From Radicibacter daui (GTDB lineage Bacteria > Pseudomonadota > Alphaproteobacteria > Radicibacterales > Radicibacteraceae): a stretch of 64,000 nt of DNA. This document shows positions 8,429-38,765 of this stretch, in pieces. The translations under genes and the position numbers were made by a program. Position 1 is the first letter of the stretch. Each line of letters begins with the position of its first letter. Location of the stretch: NCBI GenBank assembly GCA_030657355.1, contig CP131056.1, positions 2,252,501 through 2,316,500 on the forward strand, written 5' to 3'. The notes below the pieces were generated by a model, which did no database searches, was not told the DNA's origin, and worked only from the letters and a program-made list of their open reading frames with translations.

Positions 8429-8439
8429 GGCCGCAAAAG

Positions 8440-9245: not shown

Positions 9246-9469
9246 TTTTCCTCAAGGCCGGTTTGCGGGCGATCAGGCAGGACAGGATGTTTGCCCATCG
9301 GGAGCGGTTTTTAGGCCCTGCGTCAACCCGGCAGCGTTCAAACAGCACCGGGCGGCGACATGCGGCCTTGAAACCTGCCGGCGAACGGGAGATATAAGGG
9401 CCTTCCGGCAGCTTGCCCAAGGGCGAATGCCGGAGAGCGCATTTTCCATGAGAATGAAGAAGACCCCCG

Positions 9470-9721: not shown

Positions 9722-9783
9722 GCCCTTGGTCCAGTTATAGGCAGCTCTGGCGGCCACCGTCGCGTGTTGTCAGGGTTTGGCGG

Positions 9784-9810
9784 GGGCGCTGTTTTAGCGC
9801 CCTTTCTTTT
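9784..9810 (+). terminator. Rho-independent terminator
   Basis: GGGCGCT (9784-9790) pairs perfectly with AGCGCCC (9796-9802) across a five-base loop, followed by TTTCTTTT. It ends transcription of the small membrane protein gene. The 80 bases after it are strikingly AT-rich (around 9810-9880) and probably hold the promoter of the next gene. Confidence 0.85.
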
Positions 9811-9964
9811 GATTGAAATAAGTTTGATAATGTAGATTATGGAAAATATAATATATATCCGTTTGTGTTAATTTCTCTCAAGGAAATACCGGGTATTATG
9901 GTGCCATTGTTTCTGGTGCCTTCGTTTCCGGCCGGCAGTCAGGTTCCTCAGGAGACCGGGTTTC

Positions 9965-10804
9965 ATGAGTTCTGCGACCCAGCGCCATATTGACCGTATC
10001 CGCGAACGCCTGCTGTCCACCGAAATGGTCACGGCCGGTGAAATCACTTTTACGCGCTACGAGTTCAATCTGGCCGCCGTGCTGGATTTTGAGCCGCATC
10101 TCGCCAATCTGCTCGATACCTGGGAGCAGCAGCCCCGCGCCACCGCCCGCCAGTTGCTGGAGAGCTACCAGCAGCGCAACGCCTTTACCCGCAACCTCTT
10201 CCAGCGCTTCCAGGTGGTGAATGTCGCCTCGGGCAATCCGCAGCACTTTACGCTCGAATATGTCGGCAAGGACGTCATCACCTATGGTCAGGAGCTGGAG
10301 AATCGCCGGCTGATCGAGGTGATGCCCGAGCCGATCTTCTGGAAGGCTGCCGCCGACTACTGGCGCGCCGCCGTTTGCGGCGAAGCGCAGTACAGTGTCG
10401 TTACCCATACCGGTTATGGTGTCTTTCGCAGCTATGGGCGCCTCGTGCTGCCGCTGCGGCCCGAAGACAGCAAGAAGGCTGCCGGCAGCGTTCTGGTGGC
10501 CGTCAGCTATATCGAACAGCCTCCGGTGGCCGAGGCTGAAGAAAAGGCGCCGAAGGCAACCGCACAGCCCAAACGCGACCAGCGCCAGATGAGCCCGGCA
10601 CTGGCTGCTGTCGACGAAGCCAACCGCGACTATGGCCAGGCAACGAACTGGCTCGGCGTTCTTGATGAGCGTATGCAGCGCGTCGCGCGCATGGTCGAAA
10701 TTGCCAAGGAATTGCGGCGAAGTGCCGCCCTGACAGAGGGCCCGGCGCGTGAAAAACTGCTGCTTGATGCCGGCGAACTGGAGCGCCGGGCCTCAAATCT
10801 CTGA
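9965..10804 (+). CDS. PAS-domain (PAS_5-like) protein with C-terminal extension
   Basis: A 279-residue cytoplasmic protein. Residues about 40-185 have the pattern of the PAS_5-type sensory domain common in Rhodospirillales: FTLEYVGKDVITYGQ, then a variable region and SYGRLVLPLRPE. The last 90 residues are a charged linker and a helical segment (RMQRVARMVEIAKELRR) that could mediate oligomerisation. No output domain is visible. No signal peptide. It is monocistronic after an AT-rich upstream region. Signal and partner are unknown. A shorter PAS_5-like protein is encoded at 55473-55988. Confidence 0.75.
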   Translation: MSSATQRHIDRIRERLLSTEMVTAGEITFTRYEFNLAAVLDFEPHLANLLDTWEQQPRATARQLLESYQQRNAFTRNLFQRFQVVNVASGNPQHFTLEYVGKDVITYGQELENRRLIEVMPEPIFWKAAADYWRAAVCGEAQYSVVTHTGYGVFRSYGRLVLPLRPEDSKKAAGSVLVAVSYIEQPPVAEAEEKAPKATAQPKRDQRQMSPALAAVDEANRDYGQATNWLGVLDERMQRVARMVEIAKELRRSAALTEGPAREKLLLDAGELERRASNL

Positions 10805-23718: not shown

Positions 23719-25617
23719 CTACCGATCAAGATCAGACAGTGTGAAGGCTGGCCGTTCGCCATCACCGACCAGGAAGACCCGTGCCCAGATGTCCAGTACC
23801 AGCAGGGTCCACAGCCGCATGCTCCGGCGGATTCCATCATAGCTGGCGCCTTCTGCCAGATAGTCAGACACCATCCTGCCGTCGATCAGGCCATACTCGA
23901 CTGCCGGTGATGCGTGATAAAGCTGCCGGACGAGCTGGCCCAGACGTCCGGACATCCATTTATCGACCGGGCTGCCAAAACCCATTTTCGGACGGGTCAG
24001 GATCTGTTTGGGAAGCAGGTCCTCAAAGGCTGTTTTCAGGCACAGTTTCCATTCCCGCGATGTCTGGTTCAACTTAAGCGCGGTTGGCAATCCGGCGGCC
24101 AGCTCGACGAAACGATGGTCAAGGAACGGCTCCCTGATCTCCAAAGACGCCGACATCCCCATACGGTCGGTCAGATGCAGTACGTCATCACTAAGATATG
24201 TTCGCATATCCATCTGCATCAGGCGATTGACCGGGTCGAGCCCGGCGCCCGCGCTTTCACGCCACTCCTCGTCGAAATTCGGGGCTGCCGGTGCGCCTGC
24301 CATGCGTGCTGCGTAATCGGTATCGAAGATCGAAGCCTGACGCAGGAAGCGTGAGGGCTGCTGCAGATTGGCGGTATTCGCTCGCCAGCCAAGGGTGTCA
24401 GACGCCGCAGCCAGCAAAGGCCCGAATACCATGCGACGCAGCGGCATTGGCAGGCGACGATACAGATGCTCGATAGGCTTGCCGTCAAAATATCTCGGAT
24501 AGCCGCCAAAAAGCTCGTCACCTCCTACCCCGGACAGCACAACCCGCAGTTCCGATGCCACGAAATGGGAAAGCAGATAGTTTGGAACCACGGATGTATC
24601 GGCATGGGGCTCGTCCATATGCCAGACCAACTCCGGCAACAAGCGCAAGGCATCGTCGGCGGTGACGGTAATTTCGCGATGCCGGGTTTGGTACTTGTCG
24701 GCCACCAGCCGGGCGAACGGCGTCTCATCCATGGCATGATCGCCCGCGAAACCGACGGAATAGGTCTGTACGGGGCTGGAAGCGTGGCGCGACATCAGCG
24801 CAGTAACGGCGCTGGAGTCCAGCCCGCCAGAGAGGAACGCGCCTACCGGCACGTCGCTACGCAGACGGATACGCACGGCATCGTCCAGAACCTCAAGAAC
24901 CCGGTCGGCCGCTTCATCCATTTCCATCGGCACCGGCCGCAGGGCGGTGCCGATATCCCACCAACGGCGTTCTTCCGCGCTGCCGTCGGTTCCTATCAGC
25001 CACATATGCCCGGGACGGACCTTGCGCACGCCCTGGAACGGCGTTCGGGGGGCGCGCACGTACATCAAGCTGAGGTAGTCTGCAATCGCCTGACGATCGA
25101 TTGACCGGTCAATATCGGGGGCCAGTAAAAGACTTTTCAGTTCCGAGCCGAATACCCAGCCTGCGCCGGCCATGGCAAGGTAAAGCGGCTTTATGCCCAG
25201 CCGGTCGCGTGCCAGCAACAGGCGGCCCATCCGGCTGTCCCACAATGCAATGGCAAACATGCCATTGAGGCGGGAGAGGAAATCCGGGCCCATTTCCTCG
25301 TAGAGATGGACGATGACCTCGGTGTCGGAGCGCGTGGCGAAGACGTGACCCTTGGCCTTCAACTCCTCCATCAATTCGACGTAGTTGTATATCTGTCCGT
25401 TGAAGACCAGGGCGATTGTGCGATCCTCGTTGAAGATCGGCTGATGACCACCCTCGATATCGACAATACTCAGCCGGGCCATTCCCAATGTGACGGCTTC
25501 CGTATCGAAAAAGCCATCCTCGATCGGGCCGCGGTGGCGGAAGCGGGACACCATCTTGCGAACGAGATCGCTTCGCTCAAGAGCTGAACCACCAAAGATC
25601 CCCGCGATGCCGCACAT
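23719..25617 (-). CDS. asnB: Asparagine synthase (glutamine-hydrolysing), polysaccharide-locus type
   Basis: Two-domain amidotransferase of 632 residues. The class II glutaminase domain starts at Cys2 (MCGIAGIFGG), so the ATG at 25617 is required for an active nucleophile. The synthetase domain has the PP-loop FLSGGLDSSAVTALM (about 260) and SGVGGDELFGGYPRY. Members inside O-antigen loci usually amidate a sugar carboxylate or amino-acid decoration rather than supply asparagine. That fits its place as the last gene of this minus-strand locus, 96 bases after a glycosyltransferase gene. Confidence 0.9.
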   Translation of the reverse strand: MCGIAGIFGGSALERSDLVRKMVSRFRHRGPIEDGFFDTEAVTLGMARLSIVDIEGGHQPIFNEDRTIALVFNGQIYNYVELMEELKAKGHVFATRSDTEVIVHLYEEMGPDFLSRLNGMFAIALWDSRMGRLLLARDRLGIKPLYLAMAGAGWVFGSELKSLLLAPDIDRSIDRQAIADYLSLMYVRAPRTPFQGVRKVRPGHMWLIGTDGSAEERRWWDIGTALRPVPMEMDEAADRVLEVLDDAVRIRLRSDVPVGAFLSGGLDSSAVTALMSRHASSPVQTYSVGFAGDHAMDETPFARLVADKYQTRHREITVTADDALRLLPELVWHMDEPHADTSVVPNYLLSHFVASELRVVLSGVGGDELFGGYPRYFDGKPIEHLYRRLPMPLRRMVFGPLLAAASDTLGWRANTANLQQPSRFLRQASIFDTDYAARMAGAPAAPNFDEEWRESAGAGLDPVNRLMQMDMRTYLSDDVLHLTDRMGMSASLEIREPFLDHRFVELAAGLPTALKLNQTSREWKLCLKTAFEDLLPKQILTRPKMGFGSPVDKWMSGRLGQLVRQLYHASPAVEYGLIDGRMVSDYLAEGASYDGIRRSMRLWTLLVLDIWARVFLVGDGERPAFTLSDLDR

Positions 25618-25713
25618 ACTCACTCCTGAAATCAACTAGGGCAGAAACCGGACAAAACAGATACGTCTGGCTCGTTCAAAGGCACTCTTTCCGGCCAGTG
25701 CGGAAAGCTAGGG

Positions 25714-26697
25714 TCAGCGGTATTCCCCCGCCCCGCGCCCCTCGCCGTTGGACGGTACTGCGCGAGTGTCCCCACGGAAAAGGGCTGGATCGACCGGTCC
25801 CCAAATAATGGATGGAAGGTCGCGAAGTGTTCCGTGGCGCAAGCAGTACCATGCGGATCGCAGCAGCGACCTCAGCCGCGCCCTGGCCCGGACCCTGAAC
25901 GAGCAAGACTGAGAGTAGCTGCGGACTATCCTGTCTTCGTTGGCGAGGCGTTTGACCAATGCCTTGCTCAGGCCGCCCATCCAGTTATGGACCCCGAGCA
26001 GATGATCGAGATACCCCAAACGCGGGCACCGATAGTTTTGGGCCAGCAGGCACCAGGCCTCGAAATCCTGCGTGTGGCGCAAACCGTTGGAAAATACCGG
26101 GAAAGATAGCAAAGAACGCCGTATTATCAGTGCGCTGGTGGCAAAAATATTACCGTATTTCATCATGTCATCCAGCAAGACCGGACTGCGCGGCAACTGC
26201 TTGTCGAGCATTGCGGCACCTTCCAGGCTCAGCCGTTCATGGCCGATGGCAAGCATCGGATGCATGATGATATCCAGTTCCGCGACACTAAGGGCTCGAC
26301 GGACCGTTGCCAGCTTGTCATGGCGCCAAGGATCATCCGCGTCGCAAAAGCAGACAAACTCGCTCGGCGCCGTAAGTTCAACTCCCCTGTTTCGGGCAGC
26401 AGCAGCATCGCCGTCAGGCAGCCGGTCCAGCAGGATCTGAGAATGTCCAGAGAAAGCCGCGGTCAATGCTTCCCAGGTACCATCGGTCGACCCGTTCTCG
26501 ATGATAGCCAGGCGATCCTCCGGCTCCATGTTGGCAAGCACACGGCGGGCGGTATCGACGACGCAACCGGCGTTATTGTGGGCTGGAATTACGACCCCGA
26601 AGCTGGTTCTGGCTATCCTGTCGACAGGTCCAGTCCATAATTTCAGGTCAGGCCAACATCCATGGTAAAGGCGCAGGAACGGCGCAGTCCCGGTCAT
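25714..26697 (-). CDS. Glycosyltransferase family 2
   Basis: GT-A fold glycosyltransferase of 327 residues. The nucleotide-binding start is FGVVIPAHNN (about 33-42), followed by IIENGSTDGTWEAL and the DxD-type CDADDPWRHDKL (about 117). The acceptor-binding region contains HTQDFEAW. Its ATG overlaps the stop of the upstream methyltransferase gene (ATGA), so I reject longer readings. It probably adds one sugar to the lipid-linked repeat unit at the cytoplasmic face. Confidence 0.88.
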   Translation of the reverse strand: MTGTAPFLRLYHGCWPDLKLWTGPVDRIARTSFGVVIPAHNNAGCVVDTARRVLANMEPEDRLAIIENGSTDGTWEALTAAFSGHSQILLDRLPDGDAAAARNRGVELTAPSEFVCFCDADDPWRHDKLATVRRALSVAELDIIMHPMLAIGHERLSLEGAAMLDKQLPRSPVLLDDMMKYGNIFATSALIIRRSLLSFPVFSNGLRHTQDFEAWCLLAQNYRCPRLGYLDHLLGVHNWMGGLSKALVKRLANEDRIVRSYSQSCSFRVRARARLRSLLRSAWYCLRHGTLRDLPSIIWGPVDPALFRGDTRAVPSNGEGRGAGEYR

Positions 26698-27821
26698 GAA
26701 CCGGTTGAGCCTTTTCCGGCAGGCTTGGTTGCGGAAATGTTCCAACACCAGCCCAGCCATTTGCCCAGTGCCAGTTCGAAGCGGCTGTCCTCCACCATCG
26801 GCTGGCCACCATAAAGAATAGTCGTTGCCTCGAACCAGGGAACGCCAAATGCGCGTAACACGGCGTTGCGCAGCCGTGGCGCCCACGGAAGCGGCAGATA
26901 GTCAAGGCGGAAGCTGTTCTTACGCAAATGGACGTGTTCGAAGGCGTGCATAAGCTTCGACAGCTGGCGCGCCGAATAGACCCGGGTCACCGGGTTGAAT
27001 GCTCCGGCGAAGACAGGGCGCCCTTCTGTCACCCGGCCGACCCAATGCTCCTCCGGCCGCCCGAAGATGGCGCCGCGCAGGATCGCGCGCGGCACGATGT
27101 TTGTCCAATAGTGGCTCGAGTGCCGGGAATACAGCATCAATACAGCCTGCCCTCCCGGTTTGAGGACACGATGCACCTCGGCGATGCACTGGTTGGTGTT
27201 GCTGGAATGGTGAAGAACGCCATTGGAATAGACGATGTCGAAGCTGTCGTCTGCGAAGGGCAGATTTTCGGCATCAGCCTGAAATGCGACGCTTTCGGCC
27301 CCCTGTAACAGGCGAAGTTTCAACGCAGTTGAGACGACGCGCTGCGGTGTGATGTCCACCGATATGACACGGGCGCCCTGACGCTTGAACAGGGCGGAAT
27401 GTGCTCCGCCGCCAGACCCGATTTCGAGGACTGTCTTGCCGGCCAGATCCCCGAACGGCATTTCGGTTACCGCGAGCTGCCCGCGCTTGCGAAAAAACCG
27501 CTCAACCAGGTCAAGTTGCCGGTTCAGATCATCCCGGGTCATGTTCTGGTCATGATCCGTGTACCATTGCTGGCACAGATCGCCCCAGAAGGTCTGGATA
27601 TTTTTCTTCTCGGCCGTATCGGACGACGGCGCGACCAGACTGCCATGCCCTTCATTTGGAAGGTAGGGAAACTCTGCTCCGCAGGCCGGACAAGTAAGCC
27701 CGTGATCCAATGCCAGATGCTCGTGATGACAAACAGGGCAGCGCAGCAGTGAATTAAAAAATGCAGCGGCGTCTGTATTCGTATCGGCAAGCAGATCAGC
27801 CATGTCGCGTACAATATCCAT
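26694..27821 (-). CDS. SAM-dependent methyltransferase with N-terminal zinc ribbon
   Basis: A 375-residue class I methyltransferase. A CPVCHHEH / CPACGAEF zinc ribbon (about 28-52) precedes the Rossmann domain: VLEIGSGGGAHSALF (SAM motif I, about 132), VISVDITPQ, and motif IV DIVYSNGVLHHS. Likely modifies a sugar or a lipid-linked glycan. Start uncertain: ATG at 27821 is used; a TTG at 27848 and an ATG at 27803 are alternatives, none with a strong ribosome binding site. Coupled to the GT2 gene downstream. Confidence 0.83.
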   Translation of the reverse strand: MDIVRDMADLLADTNTDAAAFFNSLLRCPVCHHEHLALDHGLTCPACGAEFPYLPNEGHGSLVAPSSDTAEKKNIQTFWGDLCQQWYTDHDQNMTRDDLNRQLDLVERFFRKRGQLAVTEMPFGDLAGKTVLEIGSGGGAHSALFKRQGARVISVDITPQRVVSTALKLRLLQGAESVAFQADAENLPFADDSFDIVYSNGVLHHSSNTNQCIAEVHRVLKPGGQAVLMLYSRHSSHYWTNIVPRAILRGAIFGRPEEHWVGRVTEGRPVFAGAFNPVTRVYSARQLSKLMHAFEHVHLRKNSFRLDYLPLPWAPRLRNAVLRAFGVPWFEATTILYGGQPMVEDSRFELALGKWLGWCWNISATKPAGKGSTGS

Positions 27822-27870
27822 TGGACCAAGTCGCAGGGGTGATAGCAAAGCTCAGGTCAATCTCAAAGGC

Positions 27871-28800
27871 TTAAGGCCCTTCTTCCAAGGCGGACCCCTC
27901 GTTGGCATTCATAGTGCCCGACCTTGTGAAGCCAAGCCGGTCCAGTTCGACCGACCAGATCTGCCGATAAACAGTATGCCTGCCCAGGACCAATCCATCC
28001 AAGAAATCCTGCTCCGATCTGCTGGTCCAGTCAGGTGTGACGTCACCGATCCGTGGCAACAGCCATTGGTTGTCTTTTCGATACATCATAACCATCTCCC
28101 GCGCGCCGGAGACGACCCATTCACGGAACCGGTCGGACAGGGCTGTTCGGGCGGGGCAACAGGCAAGGTCAACCAGATGCCGCAATATGAGTATCTCGTA
28201 GGAGACCGACCCCTCGTTCAGACGCGGCCCTGTTCCATTCAGAAACAGGGTGTCCAGATGCCGCGTCAGGATGCCTTCGACCCGCTGGCGAAACTGAGTG
28301 AGATCGACTGCGTCCGGATGGTTGCCAAATTCGCCGGTATACAGTTCTCCGGCACGAAAATTGTTTAGCAGGTGGTTGTTAAACCACGTTGTCGCCCGTC
28401 GGTATTCCGGCTTCTGCGCCAGGCCGGCAGCGGCGGTATGTGCGAGCCGCTGCAGGGGAGTTGGCAACTCGCTGCCCGAGGGGAGAAGACGTTTCAAATA
28501 TACCAGATGACACAGGCGCTGGGAGAGACTGTAGGGGTCTTCAGCCAACTGGCCGGCAGCAAGCTCAAGGAAGCGGGCTATCGCGCCGTCCGCTCCCTCA
28601 TCAAGCAGTGTCTCCACTAGCCAGTTGGCCCGTGACTGGTAAAGCTTTTGCTCAAGATTGCCCTCCCCCTGCGCGGCAAATCCCGCAAGGTCATTCTGCC
28701 GGCCAAAGCGGGCAGCAATCTGGTGGGTGATACGAAAGGCAACTCCTGGCAGGATCCCCGGGTTTTTCAGCAGAACCCGCAACCATTCCCGCGGCGTCAT
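27871..28800 (-). CDS. Heparinase II/III-like protein, N-terminal (alpha-toroid) half
   Basis: A 309-residue protein corresponding to only the helical half of heparinase II/III-family polysaccharide lyases. Recognisable landmarks are TTWFNNHLLNNFRAGELYTG (about 140-160), where the family has an Asn-His pair near the active site, and GPRLNEGSVSYEILIL (about 192), where it has an E.S..Y pattern. It ends shortly after LLPRIGDVTPDW, where the full-length enzyme would continue into the beta-sandwich. That half is encoded separately at 30578-31281, with another gene in between. The start overlaps the upstream gene's stop by four bases (ATGA), so the split is fixed in the operon. Confidence 0.75.
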   Translation of the reverse strand: MTPREWLRVLLKNPGILPGVAFRITHQIAARFGRQNDLAGFAAQGEGNLEQKLYQSRANWLVETLLDEGADGAIARFLELAAGQLAEDPYSLSQRLCHLVYLKRLLPSGSELPTPLQRLAHTAAAGLAQKPEYRRATTWFNNHLLNNFRAGELYTGEFGNHPDAVDLTQFRQRVEGILTRHLDTLFLNGTGPRLNEGSVSYEILILRHLVDLACCPARTALSDRFREWVVSGAREMVMMYRKDNQWLLPRIGDVTPDWTSRSEQDFLDGLVLGRHTVYRQIWSVELDRLGFTRSGTMNANEGSALEEGP

Positions 28801-30497
28801 GATGTCCGCCGATCTATGGGATTACGGCCTGCGCTTCGGCGGGCGGAAAGCCACTCTCCGATCACGTCAGCAAGCGCAGCCCCTCGCCCCGGTTGTCCCA
28901 GATAGTCCCCGGCAAATCCGGTTCGGAAACGCTCCTGCGCCTGCGCGATCTCGTCGACGGGTGTGCTGTCAACATATCGAACAAGCGCGTCAACATCGGG
29001 TTGCAGGACGCCGTTCCCGTGCGCCAATTCCTCAAAACGGGGACGCACGATCGCGGTACGATTGACGACGAATACAGTCCGTCCGGCACAGACAGCGTCG
29101 GCGAGGATGGTCGATGGCGAGTCAATGACAAGCGCCCCAGGGCAGGCGGGTAACCCGCCAAGCTGTATTTGGCAGTTATGGCGCCGGGCCAAGTATTTCG
29201 CGATGGAATGGCCATACTGGCGTTCATCGTAAGGGTGGGGTTTGAGTGTTACCTTAAAACGACGCGACAGACCGGCCAGAATATCTTCTACCGAAGCAAG
29301 GTAGAGAGCGTCATTCATGCGGCGGTTGTCGTACATGATGTTGCTGCTCACGAAACCCGTGAGCACGTAGGTCAGTTCCTCGCCCATCCATGGCGGGGTT
29401 TCTGTCCGGCCACGAAAAATGGGTGGTGTGGCTACCAGATATTCACAGTTTGCAGCGGCCTCAAATGTCGCCAGTTCAGTGCCCACCGTCCGGGTGGCAA
29501 CGATCTTGGCATCCGACAGCAGGACATCGGCATACTGGCTGGCCAGCCATTCGTCATGCCCAACGCAGGCATGCTGCATGGTTATCACCGGGATGCCCTG
29601 GAGGCGGAGTGCTCTGGTCAGGGCAACTTCGGCAAGAGTGCCGTAGTTGACGGTGAAAAAATAAGGTGCGCCGGCCCAGTCGGCTGCGGCGATACGGGCG
29701 AGAGAATTGACGCGTCGGGCCCGTTTCAATATTGCTTTGAGAACGGGAATGTACGGGTGGCTGCGCTCAGCGGGCGTTGGTGCGATCATGACCGGAGCGT
29801 TGTGGCGGAGCAGAAAGAGAACATCCCGCAGTCGCAGGTGCCGTATGGCCCGGACTAGCAAGGAGCCGCGATCAATCCGGTGGATCATTCCTTGCTGGAA
29901 CTCCGCGGAGGCACCGTAACCGTCACGGCCGATCAGAGGCGCAGAAGGTTTGCGTCTGCGAAGCAGTGCTCGCCACGCATCCCGCCCGTTTGCGGCAATC
30001 AACTTCAATGTCAGGCTGCATCGCGGAACTGCCTGGCGCCCGGAAACGACAAATCCAGGTGTGGCTTCCATGAACAAGGCGGCGATCCTGCCCTGCTCGG
30101 GCGTATCGCCTTCAGCCGCAACCCAGGGGTTACGTGTGCCAATGAAATATTTCGTCCCGTCCAGCATTGCCAGCCGATCCACCAGTTCGGCTTTTTCCAG
30201 AAAGGTGTCTAGAATCTTCTTGGCGATGTAGTAAGGGCAGTCTTCACTGGCGAAAATTGTTTCCAGCAAGAGTTTGCGCCGCTCGGCTACCGCAGCCATC
30301 AATGCATCGTGATCGATCAACTGGCGCAGCGACAACAGGCGTTCCTTGGGCCAATCATCGGGAATGAAGGTATGGGCTGCTGCGCTTACTGGAATCAGAC
30401 AAGCGTTCCGCATCAGCCCGGGATTTGAACCCATGAACAGCGAGAAGTCGTTTTCCTTGTCCAGTATTACGTAATCCACGTCGATCAAAGCTTTCAT
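28797..30497 (-). CDS. Putative GT-B-fold surface-carbohydrate biosynthesis protein
   Basis: A 566-residue soluble protein. The N-terminal third is unassigned. The C-terminal half resembles the CDP-glycerol glycerophosphotransferase / capsule synthesis GT-B group: an alpha-beta unit with GIPVITMQHACVGHDEW, a strand VTLKPHPYDERQYG and a donor-site-like VIDSPSTILADAVCAGRTVFVVN. This pattern (HP near a strand, then S.S....A...G) is typical of KpsC/TagF-like transferases. It is inserted between the two heparinase halves, with a four-base overlap downstream. Exact reaction unknown. Confidence 0.68.
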   Translation of the reverse strand: MKALIDVDYVILDKENDFSLFMGSNPGLMRNACLIPVSAAAHTFIPDDWPKERLLSLRQLIDHDALMAAVAERRKLLLETIFASEDCPYYIAKKILDTFLEKAELVDRLAMLDGTKYFIGTRNPWVAAEGDTPEQGRIAALFMEATPGFVVSGRQAVPRCSLTLKLIAANGRDAWRALLRRRKPSAPLIGRDGYGASAEFQQGMIHRIDRGSLLVRAIRHLRLRDVLFLLRHNAPVMIAPTPAERSHPYIPVLKAILKRARRVNSLARIAAADWAGAPYFFTVNYGTLAEVALTRALRLQGIPVITMQHACVGHDEWLASQYADVLLSDAKIVATRTVGTELATFEAAANCEYLVATPPIFRGRTETPPWMGEELTYVLTGFVSSNIMYDNRRMNDALYLASVEDILAGLSRRFKVTLKPHPYDERQYGHSIAKYLARRHNCQIQLGGLPACPGALVIDSPSTILADAVCAGRTVFVVNRTAIVRPRFEELAHGNGVLQPDVDALVRYVDSTPVDEIAQAQERFRTGFAGDYLGQPGRGAALADVIGEWLSARRSAGRNPIDRRTS

Positions 30498-30577
30498 GAA
30501 AAATAAAGTTGAAGAAAAGTCAGTTTTTCATGGCAGGATTTTACGAGCGGAAATCCCGGGCAATGTCAAAGAAACCG

Positions 30578-31281
30578 TTACTGGCCCGTATCGTCAACTT
30601 CCCAGAACAGCTTCGGCCGCCAGTAATCGGGCAATTTCATGGACAGTCTCTGGCAGCTTTCGATTTCGCCATAGTCCTTGCCCCGTTCTGCCTGCCGCAA
30701 AGTAACGGCCTCGGGCAGGTCAAGATAAGTCAGGGTTGCTCCCCCGGCCCGGATGCGATCCGGGCCATCTGATGTCGCATCAAGGTCGGCGAAGACGTGA
30801 GTGAACACCGGCCGAAGCGGCGCGGAGGCAAGCGCCTCCCTGAACCGCAAACAACCGTGCCGCTGGCGCTCGATAACAAGAGAACGGCTGCTTCCTGTCA
30901 GGCTGTTGGTGGCCTTGAAAACCGCCTGTTCCCGGTCGACATCCCACTTCAGGTGGGCCGGTTCGCGGTTCAGCCGGCTGGAAAAGAAGAAACGGGTCTG
31001 CGGCCTTACAGGGCGAGCCACATCACTCAGCCCGTTATGGGCGGCCGAGCCGACAAAGAAATTGCCTTCCGCACCGTAGTCGGGGCGCCCTGGATCTATC
31101 AGAATCTCCCGGCCGCGAAGATAGAGCACATATGACAGGCAATCTTCGTGGCCGTGGTGATAAAAGGATTTCCCGGGCCGGAATACCGACACGAACACTG
31201 TAAAGTCGTCGAAGTCGGCACGTACACAATTCATGGCGGCAACACAGTGTCCGGAACAGAAGGCCAGTTATCGTCGGGCAT
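30578..31281 (-). pseudogene. Heparinase II/III-like protein, C-terminal (beta-sandwich) half, possible 5' frameshift
   Basis: The intact frame gives 218 residues from ATG at 31234. It carries the family's C-domain signature: SFYHHGHEDCLSYVLYLRGREILIDPGRPDYG, described here as HxHxD-like with Asp and Tyr (about residues 24-53). Six bases after the upstream epimerase stop another ATG (31281) starts MPDDNWPSVPDT, which looks like the natural N-terminus of this domain, but it is one frame off and ends at 31234. The transition near 31245-31252 suggests a small indel; loss of one copy of a repeated TCCGGAC would explain it. If translation starts at 31234 the domain lacks its first strand. Treated as possibly broken. 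If instead intact, it supplies the catalytic-side half that pairs with the product of 27871-28800. Confidence 0.6.
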
Positions 31282-31286
31282 CTCGA

Positions 31287-32204
31287 TCAGGCTGGGTCTG
31301 AAGCTGCGGGATCCCGGCTCTGGTATATCTTGTTTATAAGTTCGATCAGTCCATTGCCCATATCGGTGTGCGCCGGCAGCGACAGCTTTCTGGCCTCGAT
31401 CGGCACAAAATTATACTGGGTCATGCGATAGTGCTTGGAATCGTCAAGCCCGCTGAATTCCAGTTCAATTGGCCGGTTCAGTATTTCGCGGATCATCTCA
31501 AACAACTGCTGCATGGACATTCGCTCGGCGCCGGTCAACAGAAACGCCTTGTTGCGTGCCTCACCCAGCACGAGGTCGGCCGTCATCTCCGACGCATCGT
31601 TGATGTGGATGAATTCGCGGCTGTCTGTGGGGTTGCCGTCGTACCGCAGCCGGCCTTCGTGCAAAGCCGAGGTTATGAGCCGATGCATGCCATTGGAATC
31701 ATTGCTGTCGCCACCGTATAGGGAGCCATACCGCACAATGACGTAATCCAGACCGTGTGTGCTATTGAATTCCTGAATGTACTCTTCAGATGTTCTCTTC
31801 GATATTCTGTAAAAAGAACCATGTATGCTATAAACATATGCCGAACTGGCGTAGATATATTTATCTACGTTTTTAGAAACGCAGGCTTCCAGCAGATTCA
31901 GGTTGCCAATGACGTTGACGCTGATGCATTCCCTGGGCAGCTTCTTGGCCACGTTCAGGTCCGAGATGCCGGCGAAATTTACCACCCGGCACCCTTCGGA
32001 GAGTGCATCGACCACCGACTGCTGATCGCGGATATCCACGCGGGTGAAGGGAACGTCTGGCGGTAGCCCGTGGTCGTGCAAATCGGCGACCCGGACCGGG
32101 TGGTTCCGCCGCAGCAGCTCCATAACAAGGCCCCGCCCCAGATAACCATTGCCGCCAAAGATTACGACTTCAGGAACTGGCACGGCCTGCTTGTCCTCTC
32201 TCAT
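31287..32204 (-). CDS. NAD-dependent sugar epimerase/dehydratase (SDR)
   Basis: Extended short-chain dehydrogenase of 305 residues. The NAD-binding motif is FGGNGYLGRGL (about 15-25), followed by NFAGISDLNVA, SSAYVYS and the catalytic YRISK (YxxxK, about 131-135). Family members act as UDP-sugar 4-epimerases, 4,6-dehydratases or reductases. It overlaps the upstream aldolase stop by four bases (ATGA) and so is co-translated with it. The nucleotide-sugar substrate cannot be read from the sequence. Confidence 0.88.
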   Translation of the reverse strand: MREDKQAVPVPEVVIFGGNGYLGRGLVMELLRRNHPVRVADLHDHGLPPDVPFTRVDIRDQQSVVDALSEGCRVVNFAGISDLNVAKKLPRECISVNVIGNLNLLEACVSKNVDKYIYASSAYVYSIHGSFYRISKRTSEEYIQEFNSTHGLDYVIVRYGSLYGGDSNDSNGMHRLITSALHEGRLRYDGNPTDSREFIHINDASEMTADLVLGEARNKAFLLTGAERMSMQQLFEMIREILNRPIELEFSGLDDSKHYRMTQYNFVPIEARKLSLPAHTDMGNGLIELINKIYQSRDPAASDPA

Positions 32205-33019
32205 TGATCAGCGGCCACATGGACGTTGCGGGCACCAGGCAGAGCTGTGTCAATTGCCGAGACAAAATCGTCAACAGCCTGCCGGATCATGAAGACGTCG
32301 GAAGCGTAGGCCAGAAGTCGCATTCCTCGATTGATCATGGCGACGGCGCGGGCCGGATCTACCGGAACCGCATGCCCTCCTGCTGGCTTGCCTGCCTTTG
32401 CGGCCGCTGTGATCACGCGTTCAACGGCCGCCACCATATCGGGGTGATCCAGCTGTCCCGCCAGTCCCATGCTGGCCGAAAGGTCGTAGGGACCGATGAA
32501 CACTGCATCCACAGCGCCCTGAGCCAGGATTGCCTCCACGTTGGCGACGCCATCGACATGTTCTATCTGTGCAATTACAATGGCTGCCTCGTTCCAGCCG
32601 TTGGCATATTCGAAGAAGTCGCGGCCATATCCCTGGGCACGGGCCAGTCCGACACCGCGGGTTCCCCCCGTCGCCGAAGGATAGCGAGCAGATTCTCCGA
32701 TCCGGGCCGCCTGCTCGGCAGTGCGGATATCCGGAACGATCACGCCTGCAGCGCCTGCATCCAGTACCTGTTTGACCAGCGTGGTGCCGTGGTCGGGCAA
32801 CCGCACCAACGCCGGGCAGCCGCAATTGCCAGCGACGCGGATCAGGTCTGCCGCCTCTGACAGGCTGATCGGGGCGTGTTCCATGTCCACACACACCCAG
32901 TCAAGTCCGGAGCGAGCAAGTACCTCGGCGCAGATCGGATCGCGTGTCATCAGCCAGGACCCTACCGACAGGCGCCCCTCACGCAGCCCGCGCTTCAGTC
33001 GAGCAGCGAGTTCCAGCAT
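32201..33019 (-). CDS. HpcH/HpaI family class II aldolase
   Basis: Metal-dependent pyruvate aldolase of 272 residues, related to 4-hydroxy-2-oxoheptanedioate aldolase. Present are VDMEHAPIS (catalytic His, about 47), VRLPDH (Arg), the metal ligands in AQIEHVDGVANV (Glu) and FIGPYDLSASMG (Asp), and PDIRTAEQAA. The family reversibly joins pyruvate to an aldehyde, giving 4-hydroxy-2-keto acids. In a polysaccharide locus with a KdsB-like enzyme it may build a 3-deoxy-ulosonic acid. That role is inference. Five bases separate it from the exonuclease gene upstream. Confidence 0.88.
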   Translation of the reverse strand: MLELAARLKRGLREGRLSVGSWLMTRDPICAEVLARSGLDWVCVDMEHAPISLSEAADLIRVAGNCGCPALVRLPDHGTTLVKQVLDAGAAGVIVPDIRTAEQAARIGESARYPSATGGTRGVGLARAQGYGRDFFEYANGWNEAAIVIAQIEHVDGVANVEAILAQGAVDAVFIGPYDLSASMGLAGQLDHPDMVAAVERVITAAAKAGKPAGGHAVPVDPARAVAMINRGMRLLAYASDVFMIRQAVDDFVSAIDTALPGARNVHVAADQ

Positions 33020-33021
33020 TT

Positions 33022-33663
33022 CTATTTCTCCAGGTTGAAAACGTGCCCGGGGCCGGCGCCGCGTCGGCGTCTGTCCAGCTCCTCCAGCACCAGGACCAGA
33101 TTGCCGGCGTCACCCAGCGCGGTGTGCTGGTCCCCGTCCGGCTTTATACCAATCAGAGACGGCAGTGCCGAGCTCTGGGCTTGTTTTGGATCCGCTCCGG
33201 TAGCGGCGCACAGGTCGGCGCGAATATCCCGGAAGCGGAGAGAAAACGGCATATCGGCAGCGAAAAGGCCATTAAGTTCCATGTTCTCCGCCAGCACGGC
33301 GTTGTCCCAGCCGAACGACCACAGTTCCGCCTTCTCTCCGGCGAAATCCGCTAGTTGCCTGTAGGCCGTGGCAAAATCCAGCCCGCTTGTATCCACGTCC
33401 TCCTGGCGAATGCCGGTTAACGCCTTGAAGTAGTCGGAGAGCAGCGGATGAATGCGAGGACGGACATAGCAGTGGAAGATCCCATCAGCGTGGCGAGAAA
33501 GCCCATCGACTCCCACATGCAGGCGCACGGCACCAATTTCCACCACCTCCCGATGTTCATCGGGCCCGGACCATCCCCGGGCGTGAGACCCTTCCCAGGA
33601 AGTGTATTCGAGATCGTAGACGACGATCTGGGAGCCGGGTGCGGGAAACTTGAAGGGAGTCAT
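33022..33663 (-). CDS. DEDDh-family 3'-5' exonuclease
   Basis: A 213-residue nuclease of the RNase T/ERI-1 group with all acidic residues: YDLEYTSWEGS (D, E, about 17-19), WDNAVL (D, about 118) and HTALGDAGN (H and D, about 180-185). It should remove nucleotides from the 3' end of RNA or DNA. Finding it in the middle of a polysaccharide operon, immediately before the aldolase gene (tagaaATG), is unusual. The start at 33663 has AGG five bases upstream; an ATG at 33687 is also possible. The 150 bases before it hold no recognisable gene. Confidence 0.8.
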   Translation of the reverse strand: MTPFKFPAPGSQIVVYDLEYTSWEGSHARGWSGPDEHREVVEIGAVRLHVGVDGLSRHADGIFHCYVRPRIHPLLSDYFKALTGIRQEDVDTSGLDFATAYRQLADFAGEKAELWSFGWDNAVLAENMELNGLFAADMPFSLRFRDIRADLCAATGADPKQAQSSALPSLIGIKPDGDQHTALGDAGNLVLVLEELDRRRRGAGPGHVFNLEK

Positions 33664-33838
33664 GAACGCCTGGGCTTTCTGGGTCATCCGATATTAGTGT
33701 CCAGCGCTCCGGGGCGTTTTCCGGCCCCCCGAGCAAGCACTCCGCAACCTGAGACTTTCTGGCCTTCCGGCCCCGATTGTCTGCTGGGAGCCACCAGCGA
33801 GGTTGCGATGCTCGCAGAACGGGCAAACGCTCTGCGTT

Positions 33839-35326
33839 TTACTGGTCGTCATCCGACCGGTCAACGGCGATCTGCCCGATCTTCGGCGTCGATGCGAGGC
33901 ATCCCAGCGGATCGATCATCGGTCGCTCCCCCCCTGCTCCCATGGCGGCGAAACCATCAAGTAAGATCCGGCGCGATGCCTGCTCATCGGCATTCGAAAC
34001 GCTGATAGTGGTCCCGGGCCAATCGTCGAACCAGCCCGCGGGGTCCTGGTTGGGGATGTCCGGATGGTCAAGATAGGCCAGCCGGCGCTGGTCGGTGCGC
34101 AACTGGAAAACCATCGTGGTGTCCGCGTATACACAATAGCCGTAATGCGCCGACAGGTCGGTGGCGCGAGGAAAGCTTTGAGCCAAAGGCATTTCTGTCA
34201 TTGTCGGATGCAGGCGGACCCAGACGCCGATCTTGTCCCTGATCAGCGAAAGTGCGGCCAGGTCCCGGCTGACCTTGGCGTAGTTGATGCTTCCCAGATA
34301 GAGGATGCCACGCCCCTGTTTTGACAGCTTCAGGTCATAGGTCGCACCGCTGAAGCGATGACGCCGCAGCGCTGTGGTCGGCGTGGTGACTCCCAGATCC
34401 GCGAATATTGCTGGCCAATGCGGTCCGATCACGAACAGGAGGTCCGGCGAGAGCCGGCGATGCCGGGGAGCGTTATCTGGAACCCTCATATTCAGGTCAT
34501 TGGGCGAAAAGGTGCAGTTTTGTACCGCCCAGATTTGACGCCCGGCAGCGCGTAGCCGGGCGATCAACAGTTGTTCCCAGTCATGCCGCTCCATCGGTAG
34601 GCACACCACGGCGTCTGGCGCATACTGTGCCAGACGTGCGGCGGCAGCGGCATAGAGCATGCTGCCGGTGGCATGGCCGCTGGCGAAATCAGCAACGAAG
34701 GCTGCATCGATCCGGCTGCCCCGTAGGGCGGGAACGGATCTCAACGCCCGATAGAAAAGAATTTGCCGGCGCAGGGCCTGGGCCAGGTCGACAAATCGGA
34801 AATGCGCTTCTAGCGGTACTGACGCGCCCCGGTCGCCTAGATACCGGCGCCACGATACTTGGGGTAACCGCAATCCGCAGGCCACAATCCGCCGGCCAGT
34901 CAGTTCCGTTTCGCAAAAACCTGCAAAATCCTTCGCGACCAGACCGCCGCCGCTATCCGCCAGGAAGCCCACCAGGATAGCCTCGGCACCGGCCACGGCG
35001 CGATGGTCACGGTTGGCACTGGTGCGGCGTAGCAGTCTGATCAGCAGGCTGCGGGCCATAAATTTTGCGAGTTCCCGCAGGGTTCCCCGACAGATCGCCA
35101 GCCAGCCGGTAGTTCTGTCTGCCGCAGCTTGTATGCGCGCCGTTTTCAGAACCAGCCTTGAGTAAACCGGATCGGCACTTGTGCTCAGTTCGAAGATGGC
35201 GCTCGCGATGCCGGCGCCCTCTTCGGTCAGCGGTGCCAGCGATGCCATATAGGCTTCAACGGCGGCCTTCGCCGTTTCGCCCGGGGCGACGGGTGTCTTC
35301 CCTGTAGACGCTGAGATCAGGGGCAT
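33839..35326 (-). CDS. Putative surface-polysaccharide transferase (GT-B-like)
   Basis: A 495-residue soluble protein. The C-terminal half resembles capsule-type GT-B proteins: VVCLPMERHDWEQLLIARL, QIWAVQNCTFSPNDLN, DLLFVIGPHWPAIF, GILYLGSINY and VWVRLHPTMTEMPL. Order and spacing recall the protein at 28797-30497, so the two may be distant relatives. No membrane segment. Four bases separate it from the lactonase-like gene upstream. The exact donor and acceptor are unknown. Confidence 0.62.
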   Translation of the reverse strand: MPLISASTGKTPVAPGETAKAAVEAYMASLAPLTEEGAGIASAIFELSTSADPVYSRLVLKTARIQAAADRTTGWLAICRGTLRELAKFMARSLLIRLLRRTSANRDHRAVAGAEAILVGFLADSGGGLVAKDFAGFCETELTGRRIVACGLRLPQVSWRRYLGDRGASVPLEAHFRFVDLAQALRRQILFYRALRSVPALRGSRIDAAFVADFASGHATGSMLYAAAAARLAQYAPDAVVCLPMERHDWEQLLIARLRAAGRQIWAVQNCTFSPNDLNMRVPDNAPRHRRLSPDLLFVIGPHWPAIFADLGVTTPTTALRRHRFSGATYDLKLSKQGRGILYLGSINYAKVSRDLAALSLIRDKIGVWVRLHPTMTEMPLAQSFPRATDLSAHYGYCVYADTTMVFQLRTDQRRLAYLDHPDIPNQDPAGWFDDWPGTTISVSNADEQASRRILLDGFAAMGAGGERPMIDPLGCLASTPKIGQIAVDRSDDDQ

Positions 35327-35330
35327 GGGG

Positions 35331-35960
35331 TTAATACCGGTAAACGGTCAGACGCTCACCAGCGCCGTCAATCAGCGCCCGCACCGGCAGGTCAGTCCCG
35401 TCGTCGCTCCGGGCGCGTTCCCATGTAGATACCTTGTCGGCGCCGGCGAACAGCAACGCGATTTGCCGTGCTTGCAGAATCGCCGGAAGCGTCAGGCTGA
35501 TGCGTTCTCCCTTACCGGGCACAGACAGATCGACTACTGGTCCCGGTCCAGCCGTGCGCCAGCTGGTTCCGGGGAACAGCGAGGCGATATGTCCATCCGC
35601 GCCCATACCCAGGATAACCATGTCAAACGGGTGGGGCAAATCGGCGACCAGCCTGGACGCCTGATTGTCCAAGAGACTCAAAAAAGCCATATCGGCTGGC
35701 AAATGCCGCCGGATCATGCCTTCGTTGCTGTCCTGATGATCAACCGGCACACGCCGCTCGTCCGTGGCTAGCACCGTGATACGTGACCAGTTTAGCTCTC
35801 GCCTGGCGAGATGATGCAACATCAATGACGGCGTATTGCCGCCAGGGACGACCAGAACGGCTCCTCCCCCTGTCTCTATTGCACCAGACAAGGTCAGCAC
35901 CACATCATCGGTCAATGCCTTCGAGCAGGCGTCCGCGTCGATAAAAATCCGTTCCTGCAA
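35331..35960 (-). CDS. pgl: 6-phosphogluconolactonase family protein
   Basis: A 209-residue member of the glucosamine-6-phosphate isomerase/6-phosphogluconolactonase family. It has VVPGGNTPSLML (phosphate-binding, about 37-48), ATDERRVPVDHQDSNEGM and ILGMGADGHIASLFPGT (catalytic His, about 120). Pgl enzymes hydrolyse 6-phosphogluconolactone. A copy inside a glycan locus without zwf or edd may act on another sugar-phosphate lactone or ring. Three bases separate it from the HAD phosphatase gene, so they are one transcript. Confidence 0.82.
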   Translation of the reverse strand: MQERIFIDADACSKALTDDVVLTLSGAIETGGGAVLVVPGGNTPSLMLHHLARRELNWSRITVLATDERRVPVDHQDSNEGMIRRHLPADMAFLSLLDNQASRLVADLPHPFDMVILGMGADGHIASLFPGTSWRTAGPGPVVDLSVPGKGERISLTLPAILQARQIALLFAGADKVSTWERARSDDGTDLPVRALIDGAGERLTVYRY

Positions 35961-35963
35961 GTT

Positions 35964-36635
35964 TCAGGCTCCCTCTGGGGAAAGGCTGGCGAGCAGATGA
36001 TACAACGCCGACATATCCTGCACGACCGGTACTCCCTCCGGGAATGGCGAGTCCCGGCCTTCAGAAACGACACCCAGAAAAGGCCAGCCGGCGTCCCGGG
36101 CTGCCCGGAAATCGGTCAACGCGTCGCCGACAAACAGCCGTTGTTCCGGGGCCGCCCCACTATGTAAAGAGGCGATAAGATTGAGGGCATCAGCCTTGGC
36201 AGCGGGCGATCCATAAACAGCCCGGAAATGGTGGCCCAGGCCGCGAGCGGACACGATTCCGGCGAGTTCAGTCTCCGGTGTCGCGGAAACGATGTAGGCG
36301 GGCAATCTCTGCGATATCCAGGCCAGCAATTTACTGGCGCCGGCGATCTCCGGTGCAGCGATAACTGCATCGACTACCGCTTGGGAAAATCGCGTCACCA
36401 GAGCGTCAAGGGCTGCCTCTTCAGCCCTTTCGCCGGCGATTTCGACCAGGAAATGTTGAAACTTGCGGCGCCGGTCAACACCGCCATTGTCCTTGTGATA
36501 GGCAAGGAGCGCCTGGCCCATATGGGCAGGGTAGTTCGCAACTGCCCGTACAAATGCATCTCCCTTGATGTCGACGGAATCGACAAGTACTCCGTCAAAA
36601 TCAAAAGCAATTAATGTTGGTGATGACGTTATCAT
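35964..36635 (-). CDS. HAD-superfamily phosphatase (PGP/beta-PGM-like)
   Basis: A 223-residue HAD hydrolase with motif I FDFDGVLVDS (about 11-20), motif II VSATPE, a motif III lysine near SPAAKADAL and motif IV VGDALTDFRAARDAG. The helical cap follows motif I. It is the first gene of the left-reading sub-operon that starts in the AT-rich divergent region. In this setting it could dephosphorylate an ulosonic-acid phosphate (as KdsC does for Kdo-8-phosphate), although its sequence class differs from KdsC. Confidence 0.85.
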   Translation of the reverse strand: MITSSPTLIAFDFDGVLVDSVDIKGDAFVRAVANYPAHMGQALLAYHKDNGGVDRRRKFQHFLVEIAGERAEEAALDALVTRFSQAVVDAVIAAPEIAGASKLLAWISQRLPAYIVSATPETELAGIVSARGLGHHFRAVYGSPAAKADALNLIASLHSGAAPEQRLFVGDALTDFRAARDAGWPFLGVVSEGRDSPFPEGVPVVQDMSALYHLLASLSPEGA

Positions 36636-37002
36636 GCTAAACTCTTCAAAATTTAAGGCGCTTTATTTATTGTTATTACCCAATTGTATTTTAATTTTGT
36701 TTATTGCTAGCCGGCCTTCATTTCAGTGAGAGGGTGAGGCTGAGGGGGTGCAGTACGGTCTGCTGAATTTCATGACGTCGCCCCTGCTATTTATTGTGCG
36801 TCTTATCGATCTTCTGGCACAGTTTCATCCGTCTGGACAGCCTCCGCCTTATGCTGCCCCGTCTTGCCGATCATCCATGTAGCAAGGTAGTGTCCCCAAC
36901 CTGCCGCGACAGCATCCGGGCGCCGCACTCCGTCACGCCAGAACAAAAACCGGCAAGGCGTCTTCATAGTCACTGGTTTTGACCCAAAGGATCATAGTCC
37001 TC
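36636..37002. other. Divergent, AT-rich intergenic region inside the polysaccharide locus
   Basis: 367 bases between divergently transcribed genes. The left third (about 36640-36715) is very AT-rich and should hold the promoter of the HAD-to-asnB operon. The right part is GC-normal and leads into the KdsB-like gene with AAAGGATC as ribosome binding site. No ops/JUMPstart element, no convincing hairpin terminator and no protein-like short frame were found. Confidence 0.6.
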
Positions 37003-37818
37003 ATGCGCACTATCGCCATTATTCCCGCCCGCATGGGATCCGGGCGTTTTCCCGGCAAGCCCCTGCACTCGATCGAAGGTGTATCGATGATCGGGCATTG
37101 TTACCTGCGGACCCGCCTCAGCCAGACACCGACCCGGGTTGTTGTGGCTACGCCCAACGAGGAAGTGGCGCAGGACATACGGGCGCTTGGCGGCGATGTA
37201 ATCCTCACTCCCGAATTTGATATGTGTAATGACCGTATTGCCTGGGCCTATAACGAGATCGCCAAGGTCGATGGTCCTTATGATCTGGTTATCAACGTTC
37301 AGGGTGATCAGCCGCTGATCTATCCCGAGATGCTGGATGCGCTAATTGACGCGGCCCGGACTGATCCGGCATTCCCGAGCTTCACCATGGTCGAGCCCTG
37401 TACGACACTGGATGATTTTCACGATCTCAATCGCGTAAAGGTCTTGTTCCGCGAAAAGGATGGGGGCCTCATCTATATGTCGCGTGCGCCGATCCCCTCC
37501 CCCAAGAAGCATGGATCGATGCCGGAGAAGACTTACAAGCACGTTGCCATCATCGCCTTCAAGCCGGACTTTCTGCAGAAATTCCTGGATTTCGGCATGA
37601 CCTACAACGAGCATATCGAGGGTATCGATTACAATCGCGTCCTTGAGATGGGAGCGGAGATGAAGGTTATTGCGACCGACATCGTGACCGATACCGTTGA
37701 TACTCCGGAAGATCTCGAACGCGTGCGCGTCACCATGCGCACCGACCGGCTCTGGTTGTCGGGGGCCTATGGTCCGCGCGCGGGCGGCGCTTCCGGGGCC
37801 GGGGAGACGGCACCGTGA
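37003..37818 (+). CDS. KdsB-like CMP-sugar-acid cytidylyltransferase
   Basis: A 271-residue cytidylyltransferase of the KdsB/NeuA fold. The CTP-binding start AIIPARMGSGRFPGKPL is clear, followed by NDRIAWAY, the metal-site strand INVQGDQPLI, SRAPIPSP and the closing VDTPEDLERVR. Two differences from true CMP-Kdo synthetase: GDEP is GDQP here, and the usual EQLEQLR..E substrate helix is EHIEGIDYNRVLEMG. A 2-keto sugar acid other than Kdo is therefore likely. It and the next gene read against the rest of the locus and overlap by four bases. Confidence 0.82.
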   Translation: MRTIAIIPARMGSGRFPGKPLHSIEGVSMIGHCYLRTRLSQTPTRVVVATPNEEVAQDIRALGGDVILTPEFDMCNDRIAWAYNEIAKVDGPYDLVINVQGDQPLIYPEMLDALIDAARTDPAFPSFTMVEPCTTLDDFHDLNRVKVLFREKDGGLIYMSRAPIPSPKKHGSMPEKTYKHVAIIAFKPDFLQKFLDFGMTYNEHIEGIDYNRVLEMGAEMKVIATDIVTDTVDTPEDLERVRVTMRTDRLWLSGAYGPRAGGASGAGETAP

Positions 37819-38765
37819 GGATTTTGATCTCGGTTCATCCCTTTGCTGCTACCGGGATAGAGCCTCTGGAAAAGCTCCGGGAGTCTGGCCACGAACTGCG
37901 GTTCAATCCTCATGGCCGCAAGATGACCGAAGCAGAGATACTGGCCATGGCGCCGTGGGCGGACGCAATCGTTGCCGGCACCGAACCGATTACCGAGCAG
38001 GTTATTGAAGCTTGCCCCAATCTCAGGGTGATCTCCCGCGTTGGTTCCGGTTTTGATTCCGTCGACCGGGCGGCCTGCCACAGGCGCGGCATTAAGGTAT
38101 GCTATGCTCCCAATGCCCCGGTGCCCAGTGTAGTCGAGTTGACGCTTGGGCTAGCGCTCGACTGTCTGCGCCGGTTTGGTGAAAGCGATCTGCGCATGCG
38201 GCGGGGCGAATGGTACCGGCCCATGGGCAGATTGCTACGCGGGCGCGTGGTCGGTGTTGCCGGCGTCGGTCGTATAGGCTCGCGGGTGGCCCAGACGATG
38301 CAGGCGCTTGGGTGCGAGGTCCGCGGGCACGATATCGCACCGAACCCCGACCTGAATATTCCGTACGTGTCGCGCGAAGTGTTGCTGGCGGAAAGCGACA
38401 TCGTCACTCTTCATCTGCCGCTAAGCGCCAGGACCCGGCATTGGATAGACGCAGCAGCGCTGCGGTCGATGAAGCCTGGTGCAATTCTGATCAACGCGGC
38501 CCGCGGCGGTATCGTTGATGAGGCGGCACTGGAAGTGGCGCTGCGTGAGCGCCACCTGTCCTGCGCTGCCGTGGATGTATTTGAGCGGGAGCCTTATGAT
38601 GGGCCGTTGCGCCAGGTCGGCAATGTCATCCTGACCGGCCACATTGGTGCTGCAGCAGCGGAGAGCCGCATACTCATGGAGTATGAAGCGGTAGAAAATG
38701 CCTTGCTGGTGCTGAGTGGCAAGGAACCGCTCAATGAAGTCCCACTGGACCTGCTGGCCGGCTAG
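37815..38765 (+). CDS. D-isomer-specific 2-hydroxyacid dehydrogenase
   Basis: A 316-residue NAD-dependent dehydrogenase of the phosphoglycerate-dehydrogenase family. The NAD-binding motif is GVAGVGRIGSRVAQTM (about 142-157) and the catalytic Arg is in INAARGGIVDE. Glu lies in DVFEREPY and His in LTGHIGAAAAES. It starts GTG within the preceding stop (GTGA), so it is coupled to the KdsB-like enzyme. It may interconvert a 2-keto acid and a 2-hydroxy acid in precursor supply. Its last 35 bases overlap the convergent Wzy-like gene. Confidence 0.88.
   Translation: MRILISVHPFAATGIEPLEKLRESGHELRFNPHGRKMTEAEILAMAPWADAIVAGTEPITEQVIEACPNLRVISRVGSGFDSVDRAACHRRGIKVCYAPNAPVPSVVELTLGLALDCLRRFGESDLRMRRGEWYRPMGRLLRGRVVGVAGVGRIGSRVAQTMQALGCEVRGHDIAPNPDLNIPYVSREVLLAESDIVTLHLPLSARTRHWIDAAALRSMKPGAILINAARGGIVDEAALEVALRERHLSCAAVDVFEREPYDGPLRQVGNVILTGHIGAAAAESRILMEYEAVENALLVLSGKEPLNEVPLDLLAG

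Follow-up and report, generated by a model that had tools for sequence, protein, structure and literature searches.

Sequence comparison within a 64,000-nucleotide stretch of the Radicibacter daui genome (the window; G000:C1:2252501-2316500, in a genome of 5.06 Mb and two contigs) supports the existence of a split heparinase II/III-type protein: two gene products appear to be the two domains of one such protein, and their genes stand in swapped order on either side of a third open reading frame (ORF). The arrangement is a real and unusual one of a known kind of protein, with a predicted function. Our preferred reading, to which we give a probability of roughly 0.55, is that gene fission and rearrangement produced a probable two-subunit uronate lyase or epimerase, whose assembly and activity are predicted from the evidence below.

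All three ORFs lie on the minus strand. In the order of transcription, they encode a 218–amino acid (aa) protein with the Hepar_II_III beta-sandwich domain and the motif HHGHED...LIDPGRPDYG (the C half; 30578-31234), a 566-aa protein without a family match (28797-30497), and a 309-aa protein carrying the toroid domain (the N half; 27871-28800). A first-pass annotation of this DNA had described the halves as separate genes in the order C half, middle gene, N half; the ORF coordinates bear out this order and show both halves to be intact ORFs. The C half does not begin at 31281, as given there, since this position is out of frame: in the C-half frame, a TAA at 31270-31268 is followed by the first ATG, GTG, or TTG, an ATG at 31234, which is the actual start. 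Four-base overlaps had been proposed for both junctions. One exists between the middle gene and the N half (ATGA at 28797-28800, in which the 566-aa gene stops and the N half starts), but the C-half gene is separated from the 566-aa gene by an 80-base gap (30498-30577). A further 52 bases precede the C half, and 22 follow the N half. Codon use and the GC content at third codon positions (GC3) of both halves are inside the range of neighboring genes.

An alignment of the C half with one relative, used to scan genome_contigs, yielded 17 loci from 63 matching stretches. The relative L052 from Massilia solisilvae is a single 1031-aa frame (7574-10669 of NZ_JANUGV010000001.1) consisting of a Pfam Glycos_transf_1 domain and a Hepar_II_III protein. 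In BLAST comparisons, residues 50-275 of the N half aligned with L052 residues 517-746 (28.7% identity over 247 columns, 42 bits) and residues 21-70 of the C half with L052 residues 810-861 (48% over 52 columns, 52 bits). When each half was shuffled 1000 times, the corresponding score was never reached. Both halves therefore sit at complementary, collinear places on one single-chain protein. These alignments and shuffles, together with the domain profiles and the phmmer searches with filters off described below, uphold the proposal that the halves are domains of one heparinase II/III-type protein.

The C half matches Pfam Hepar_II_III_C (PF07940) with 41.2 bits against a cut-off of 24 (E = 1.7e-10), which identifies it as the C-terminal beta-sandwich domain of the Hepar_II_III family. 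A sandwich profile built without the window sequences ranked it first among 570 window frames (E = 3e-15; 1.4 for the next frame). The N half has no Pfam or NCBIfam match, the Pfam N-domain PF16889 included. Since this model is also unmatched by four of six intact proteins, all of which carry PF07940, it is not decisive. Leave-out domain profiles were built from 15 relatives with the window sequences excluded. The toroid profile ranked the N half first among the 570 frames, with 14.1 bits and E = 4.6e-4, compared to 0.72 for the next frame. An initial comparison between profiles of the N half and of mixed heparinase frames matched only weakly (E = 0.034); because some of its rows came from the wrong strand, we set it aside. 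When phmmer was run with its filters off, the N half scored 27.6 bits against L052, and L052 scored 29.5 bits against the N half, while the best of 2000 shuffles reached 6.8. Together, the L052 alignment and the leave-out profile indicate an N-terminal alpha/alpha toroid homologous to that of Hepar_II_III proteins.

The position of the break was estimated from the distance between the toroid GD motif and the sandwich HxHxD motif, with the GD of the toroid being taken where a chain holds several. In the window, 58 residues follow GD in the N half and 26 precede HxHxD in the C half, or 84 in total; the distance is 92 in L052 and ranges from 76 to 112 in the 15 relatives that have both motifs, L052 included. 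The break thus falls within the inter-domain linker, with little apparently lost or doubled. No fragment of the other domain was found in window frames of at least 60 aa, shorter remnants not having been searched for.

Conserved residues were examined in 16-row alignments comprising the window and 15 relatives from the 17 loci (L056 and L066 were left out before alignment). In the N alignment, His143, Glu196, Tyr201, Gly252, and Asp253 are invariant (16/16), and Asn142 is present in 15 of the 16 rows. In the C alignment, His27, His29, Asp31, Asp47, Gly49, Tyr53, and His66 are invariant (16/16). Profile searches of solved structures find heparinase III, while one-sequence searches of the PDB were uninformative. 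In alignments with the heparinase III structure 4mmh, the Asn, Tyr, and His columns stand at positions 216, 270, and 400 (counted by hand), which a constant offset of 24 turns into Asn240, Tyr294, and His424. PMC12088678 gives these as the catalytic residues of heparinase III, with Asn240 as the neutralizer and Tyr294/His424 as the base/acid pair. Asn142 (codon at 28377-28375, minus strand) and Tyr201 (28200-28198, minus strand) of the N half align with Asn240 and Tyr294, and His27 (31156-31154, minus strand) of the C half aligns with His424. The catalytic Asn and Tyr of the toroid and the His of the sandwich are thus all retained, with two of them carried by the N half and the third by the C half; neither half therefore has a complete site. 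If the protein is functional, the division of active-site residues between the pieces requires a two-part mode of working.

AlphaFold2 models were made for each half, with relatives of the expected fold supplied as alignment rows. When the C half model was compared to solved structures with VIA, the first 32 rows were polysaccharide lyases or dermatan sulfate epimerase, the best match being 4mmh (Z = 9.9 over 162 residues at 3.4 Å, chain positions 397-585). The N half model aligned with the same structure with Z = 8.8 over 214 residues at 5.0 Å (chain positions 146-417). The modeled domains therefore map onto adjoining parts of one solved chain.

These results can be joined into the following scenario. 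A surface-polysaccharide cluster would originally have held one single-chain Hepar_II_III-type protein, which would have been split at the inter-domain linker; rearrangement would have moved the beta-sandwich gene to the upstream side and the toroid gene to the downstream side of an unrelated ORF. As a speculation, the C-middle-N order might have arisen by tandem duplication of the middle gene together with the enzyme gene, followed by loss of the outer domains. The two products would most likely pair noncovalently through the surface that joins the two domains in one-chain enzymes. In the rebuilt cleft, Asn142 and Tyr201 of the toroid subunit and His27 of the sandwich subunit would neutralize the carboxylate of the uronate and remove or donate its C5 proton, so that a uronate in the polymer produced by the cluster would undergo beta-elimination (a lyase) or C5 epimerization. 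A stable two-subunit enzyme, which is a prediction, is consistent with domains that are intact, catalytic residues that complement each other, and a break in the linker. We consider the chances evenly divided that the products form an obligate two-subunit heparinase-fold enzyme, in which the base/acid pair is split between polypeptides and activity within the polysaccharide-synthesis cluster needs pairing. A limited literature search did not find the choice between lyase and epimerase roles settled for heparinase-fold proteins of biosynthetic clusters.

The genes around the three ORFs are those of a polysaccharide cluster. A gene for a nicotinamide adenine dinucleotide (NAD)–dependent epimerase/dehydratase lies upstream (31287-32204). 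Downstream are genes for a methyltransferase (26694-27848; a similar protein occurs in locus L078), a family 2 glycosyltransferase (GT2; 25714-26886), and an asparagine-synthase-like amidotransferase (23719-25635), the latter two with similar proteins in both L052 and L078; all four genes are on the minus strand. Further along the window are Wzz, sugar-nucleotide, and cytidylyltransferase genes. In L052, the intact heparinase-type gene has the asparagine-synthase-like gene directly beside it, a GT2 gene comes next, and a NeuB-family gene is close by; in L078, the asparagine-synthase-like gene is one gene away. The L078 row reads partial uridine diphosphate (UDP)–glucose dehydrogenase-family gene (at the contig end), dehydrogenase fusion, asparagine synthase, GT2, methyltransferase, and Wzy_C. 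The window thus has asparagine synthase and GT2 genes in common with L052 and L078 and the methyltransferase gene with L078. An intact relative from genome G042 (L045) has no such neighbors in common with the window. Because of the common neighbors, the split protein can be placed in a type of surface-polysaccharide cluster that also holds single-chain relatives (two examined). UDP-glucose dehydrogenase-family matches in the genome of the window (two over the cut-off and one weak) all lie outside the window. The fusion of the heparinase-type protein with a glycosyltransferase domain in one frame, seen at L052:7574-10669 of Massilia solisilvae, points to a cytoplasmic, biosynthetic role of this subfamily. 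The halves themselves are predicted to be cytoplasmic, and they contain no strongly hydrophobic 19-residue stretch (highest means, 1.29 and 0.69).

Two observations concern the cluster itself. Genes for an HpcH/HpaI-type aldolase, a HAD phosphatase, a glucosamine-isomerase/6-phosphogluconolactonase-type protein, a cytidylyltransferase, and a 2-hydroxyacid dehydrogenase stand together at 32201-38765, which suggests a pathway to an acidic sugar activated with cytidine monophosphate (CMP). An RNase_T-type exonuclease gene (33022-33687) is located inside the cluster, between the HpcH/HpaI-type aldolase gene and the gene of a 495-aa protein.

The occurrence of the halves was assessed in sets of 58, 387, and 160 genomes, which overlap; the 57 relatives surveyed beside the genome of the window share only its class. 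The first-pass annotation had proposed looking for the three-gene order in other Rhodospirillales; no second genome with it was found, and the N half itself was detected in its own genome only (1/58, 1/387, and 1/160). When the N half was sought in genome_contigs and viral_contigs, 86 and 5 stretches, respectively, matched a pattern, and none was confirmed. For the C half, 4 of 58 and 5 of 387 genomes gave matches. Apart from its own genome, which is counted in both figures, these are weak (best E = 3.4e-6) and fall in frames 571 to 994 aa long; one such frame (650 aa) has an internal stop. Four other Hepar_II_III_C loci are present in the genome of the window, in frames of 563 to 697 aa. Among 72,556 plasmid records, no match was obtained for the N half, the middle protein, or the C half at E 0.01 or for the heparinase part of L052 at E 1e-5.

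Domain architecture was then surveyed in frames of at least 60 aa, using profiles that included the window rows, at loci most of which had been preselected by a C-domain match and are thus not a random sample. Copies of the window aside, the matching loci carry both domains in one frame or have a long frame (578-1601 aa) where the C domain alone exceeds the threshold; the remaining ones are frames truncated at a contig end or, in the case of L075 and L076, genes that are interrupted but keep the original order. The short C-domain frames (L027/L080, L074, and L079) are all cut by contig ends, and no domain-profile match was obtained in L004/L046, where the match contains one internal stop, or in L077, at a contig end. 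This survey, together with L052, supports the single-chain state of relatives that had been assumed at first. The usual architecture, with both domains in one chain, is thus replaced in the window by two ORFs with a gene between them, and we treat the protein as a split variant. No split enzyme of this fold was found in open PMC papers, among the matches listed.

Several results weigh against a split, working enzyme. The N half is a distant relative of the family by sequence. Its leave-out profile score is low: no shuffle out of 2000 reached its 14.2 bits, but one scored 14.1. With default filters, phmmer did not report the N half against L052, and a search of the genome of the window with the heparinase part of L052 found the C half and missed the N half. 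BLAST of the N half against L069, an alphaproteobacterial relative, was at chance level, with 183 of 1000 shuffles doing as well; a plain local alignment of the two gives 30% identity over 158 residues. Both models are of middling confidence, with a predicted local distance difference test score (pLDDT) of 64.7 and a predicted template modeling score (pTM) of 0.66 for the N half and values of 61.5 and 0.61, respectively, for the C half, and Foldseek found no PDB match at E 0.001 for either. In the VIA comparison, the N half scored 8.8 to 9.5 with heparinase III chains, but unrelated alpha/alpha toroids scored as high or higher (up to Z = 10.3), and so its model speaks for the class of fold rather than for this family. 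Modeling was poor for residues 1-70 of the N half and residues 186-218 of the C half, and each half may therefore lack a piece. There is no overlap between the C-half and middle genes, and inspection by eye revealed no clear ribosome-binding motif ahead of either, so that joint expression of the halves is a prediction. Lastly, with the N half found in one genome only among those searched and no second genome found to carry the arrangement, conservation cannot be used to show function.

The main rival explanation, which we regard as unlikely, is that the pieces are remnants: a heparinase-type gene would have been broken by duplication or rearrangement, leaving ORFs that drift or serve no purpose. 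Intact single-chain genes do exist in relatives (L052 and L069/L078), as the first-pass annotation had foreseen for the case of decay, and they stand in clusters with neighbors in common with the window, while the split arrangement is known from one genome only. Breakage of such genes, or sequencing error, does occur: the heparinase-type genes at L075:5649-7751 and L076:940-2923, which keep the original domain order, are interrupted by a stop or frame changes, through either decay or sequencing error. The last part of the C half has also diverged, since its alignment to L052 covers 50 residues, compared to 227 and 150 in the intact L069 and L003. The pieces themselves, however, are unlike decay. 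Neither ORF is interrupted, codon use stays within the range seen in their neighbors, and all of the catalytic residues examined are retained. The N half is no more distant from L052 (33% over 209 residues, score 141) than the spread of intact relatives allows (28% over 215 residues and score 190 for L069; 34% over 220 and score 95 for L003).

Alternatively, the products may pair and fold but carry out no lyase or epimerase chemistry, their role being, for instance, to bind the polymer or to act as a scaffold within the biosynthetic complex. The fusion of the nearest relative to a glycosyltransferase suggests that the domain may sit in a synthesis complex, and the window protein has no known substrate; retention of the catalytic-center Asn, Tyr, and His, which a pure binding role does not need, makes this explanation improbable. 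Least credible is an assembly or annotation artefact hiding a normal single gene: the arrangement is seen in only one assembly, but this consists of two contigs with listed completeness of 100 and contamination of 0.12, each half has its own start and stop, the ATGA junction between the N half and the middle gene is clean, and the longest direct repeat in 27500-32500 is only 37 bases at 76% identity.

The 37-base direct repeat has its copies in the methyltransferase gene (27506-27542) and the epimerase gene (31460-31496) and so brackets the three-gene block, and an exact 14-base inverted pair has one arm in each half gene (28398-28411 and 31177-31190); both may be due to chance. A flanking repeat as the cause of the rearrangement was considered and dropped. 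A scan of 27500-32500 for sigma-70-type promoters found no site, a negative that is not decisive for this organism.

The 566-aa protein had been labeled GT-B-like at first and proposed as a partner of the enzyme. The label found no support, as neither Pfam (at E 1) nor NCBIfam (at E 0.1) gave a match for the protein, and nothing was found in favor of the partnership, the protein being without a demonstrated link to the halves. Among 387 genomes, it has a match in its own and a weak one in a single other (E = 1.1e-4; a protein without a Pfam family). The idea that it corresponds to the glycosyltransferase of the Massilia fusion was rejected because there is no similarity above chance, and a relationship to the neighboring 495-aa protein was dropped after comparison.

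Polysaccharide lyases of this fold are tools for analyzing and tailoring glycosaminoglycans. If the natural split form is true, it would show that the two domains, toroid and sandwich, are able to fold separately and come together again, and the window would offer a ready-made split enzyme controllable by assembly as well as a clear case of gene fission with swapped gene order. Our analysis also draws attention to heparinase-fold proteins in biosynthetic clusters, one of them fused to a glycosyltransferase.

Among known proteins, the Massilia L052 protein is the closest match found for both halves. It has both domains and the same order of motifs, and its gene adjoins an asparagine-synthase-like gene followed by a GT2 gene. 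It differs in being one frame with an N-terminal glycosyltransferase domain, whereas the window has two genes with swapped domain gene order and no such fusion. The intact 626-aa relative of the alphaproteobacterium G027 (L069/L078) carries FGDISPD after the toroid, as does L052, where the window has IGDVTPD (compared by eye); it is one chain, however, and its gene is adjoined by a dehydrogenase fusion gene and not by the 566-aa gene. Heparinase III is a single-chain, secreted, catabolic enzyme. With this PL12 enzyme (4mmh, 4fnv, and 5jmd; PL, polysaccharide lyase family), the window proteins share the toroid and beta-sandwich domains and the correspondence of Asn240, Tyr294, and His424 to Asn142, Tyr201, and His27, but the halves are distant from it by sequence and are located in a biosynthetic cluster. 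The C half also aligns at Z 9.2-9.3 with dermatan sulfate epimerase 1 (6hzn) and with alginate lyases of families PL15 and PL17 (3a0o and 4nei), which, in contrast to the split protein of the window, are single chains.

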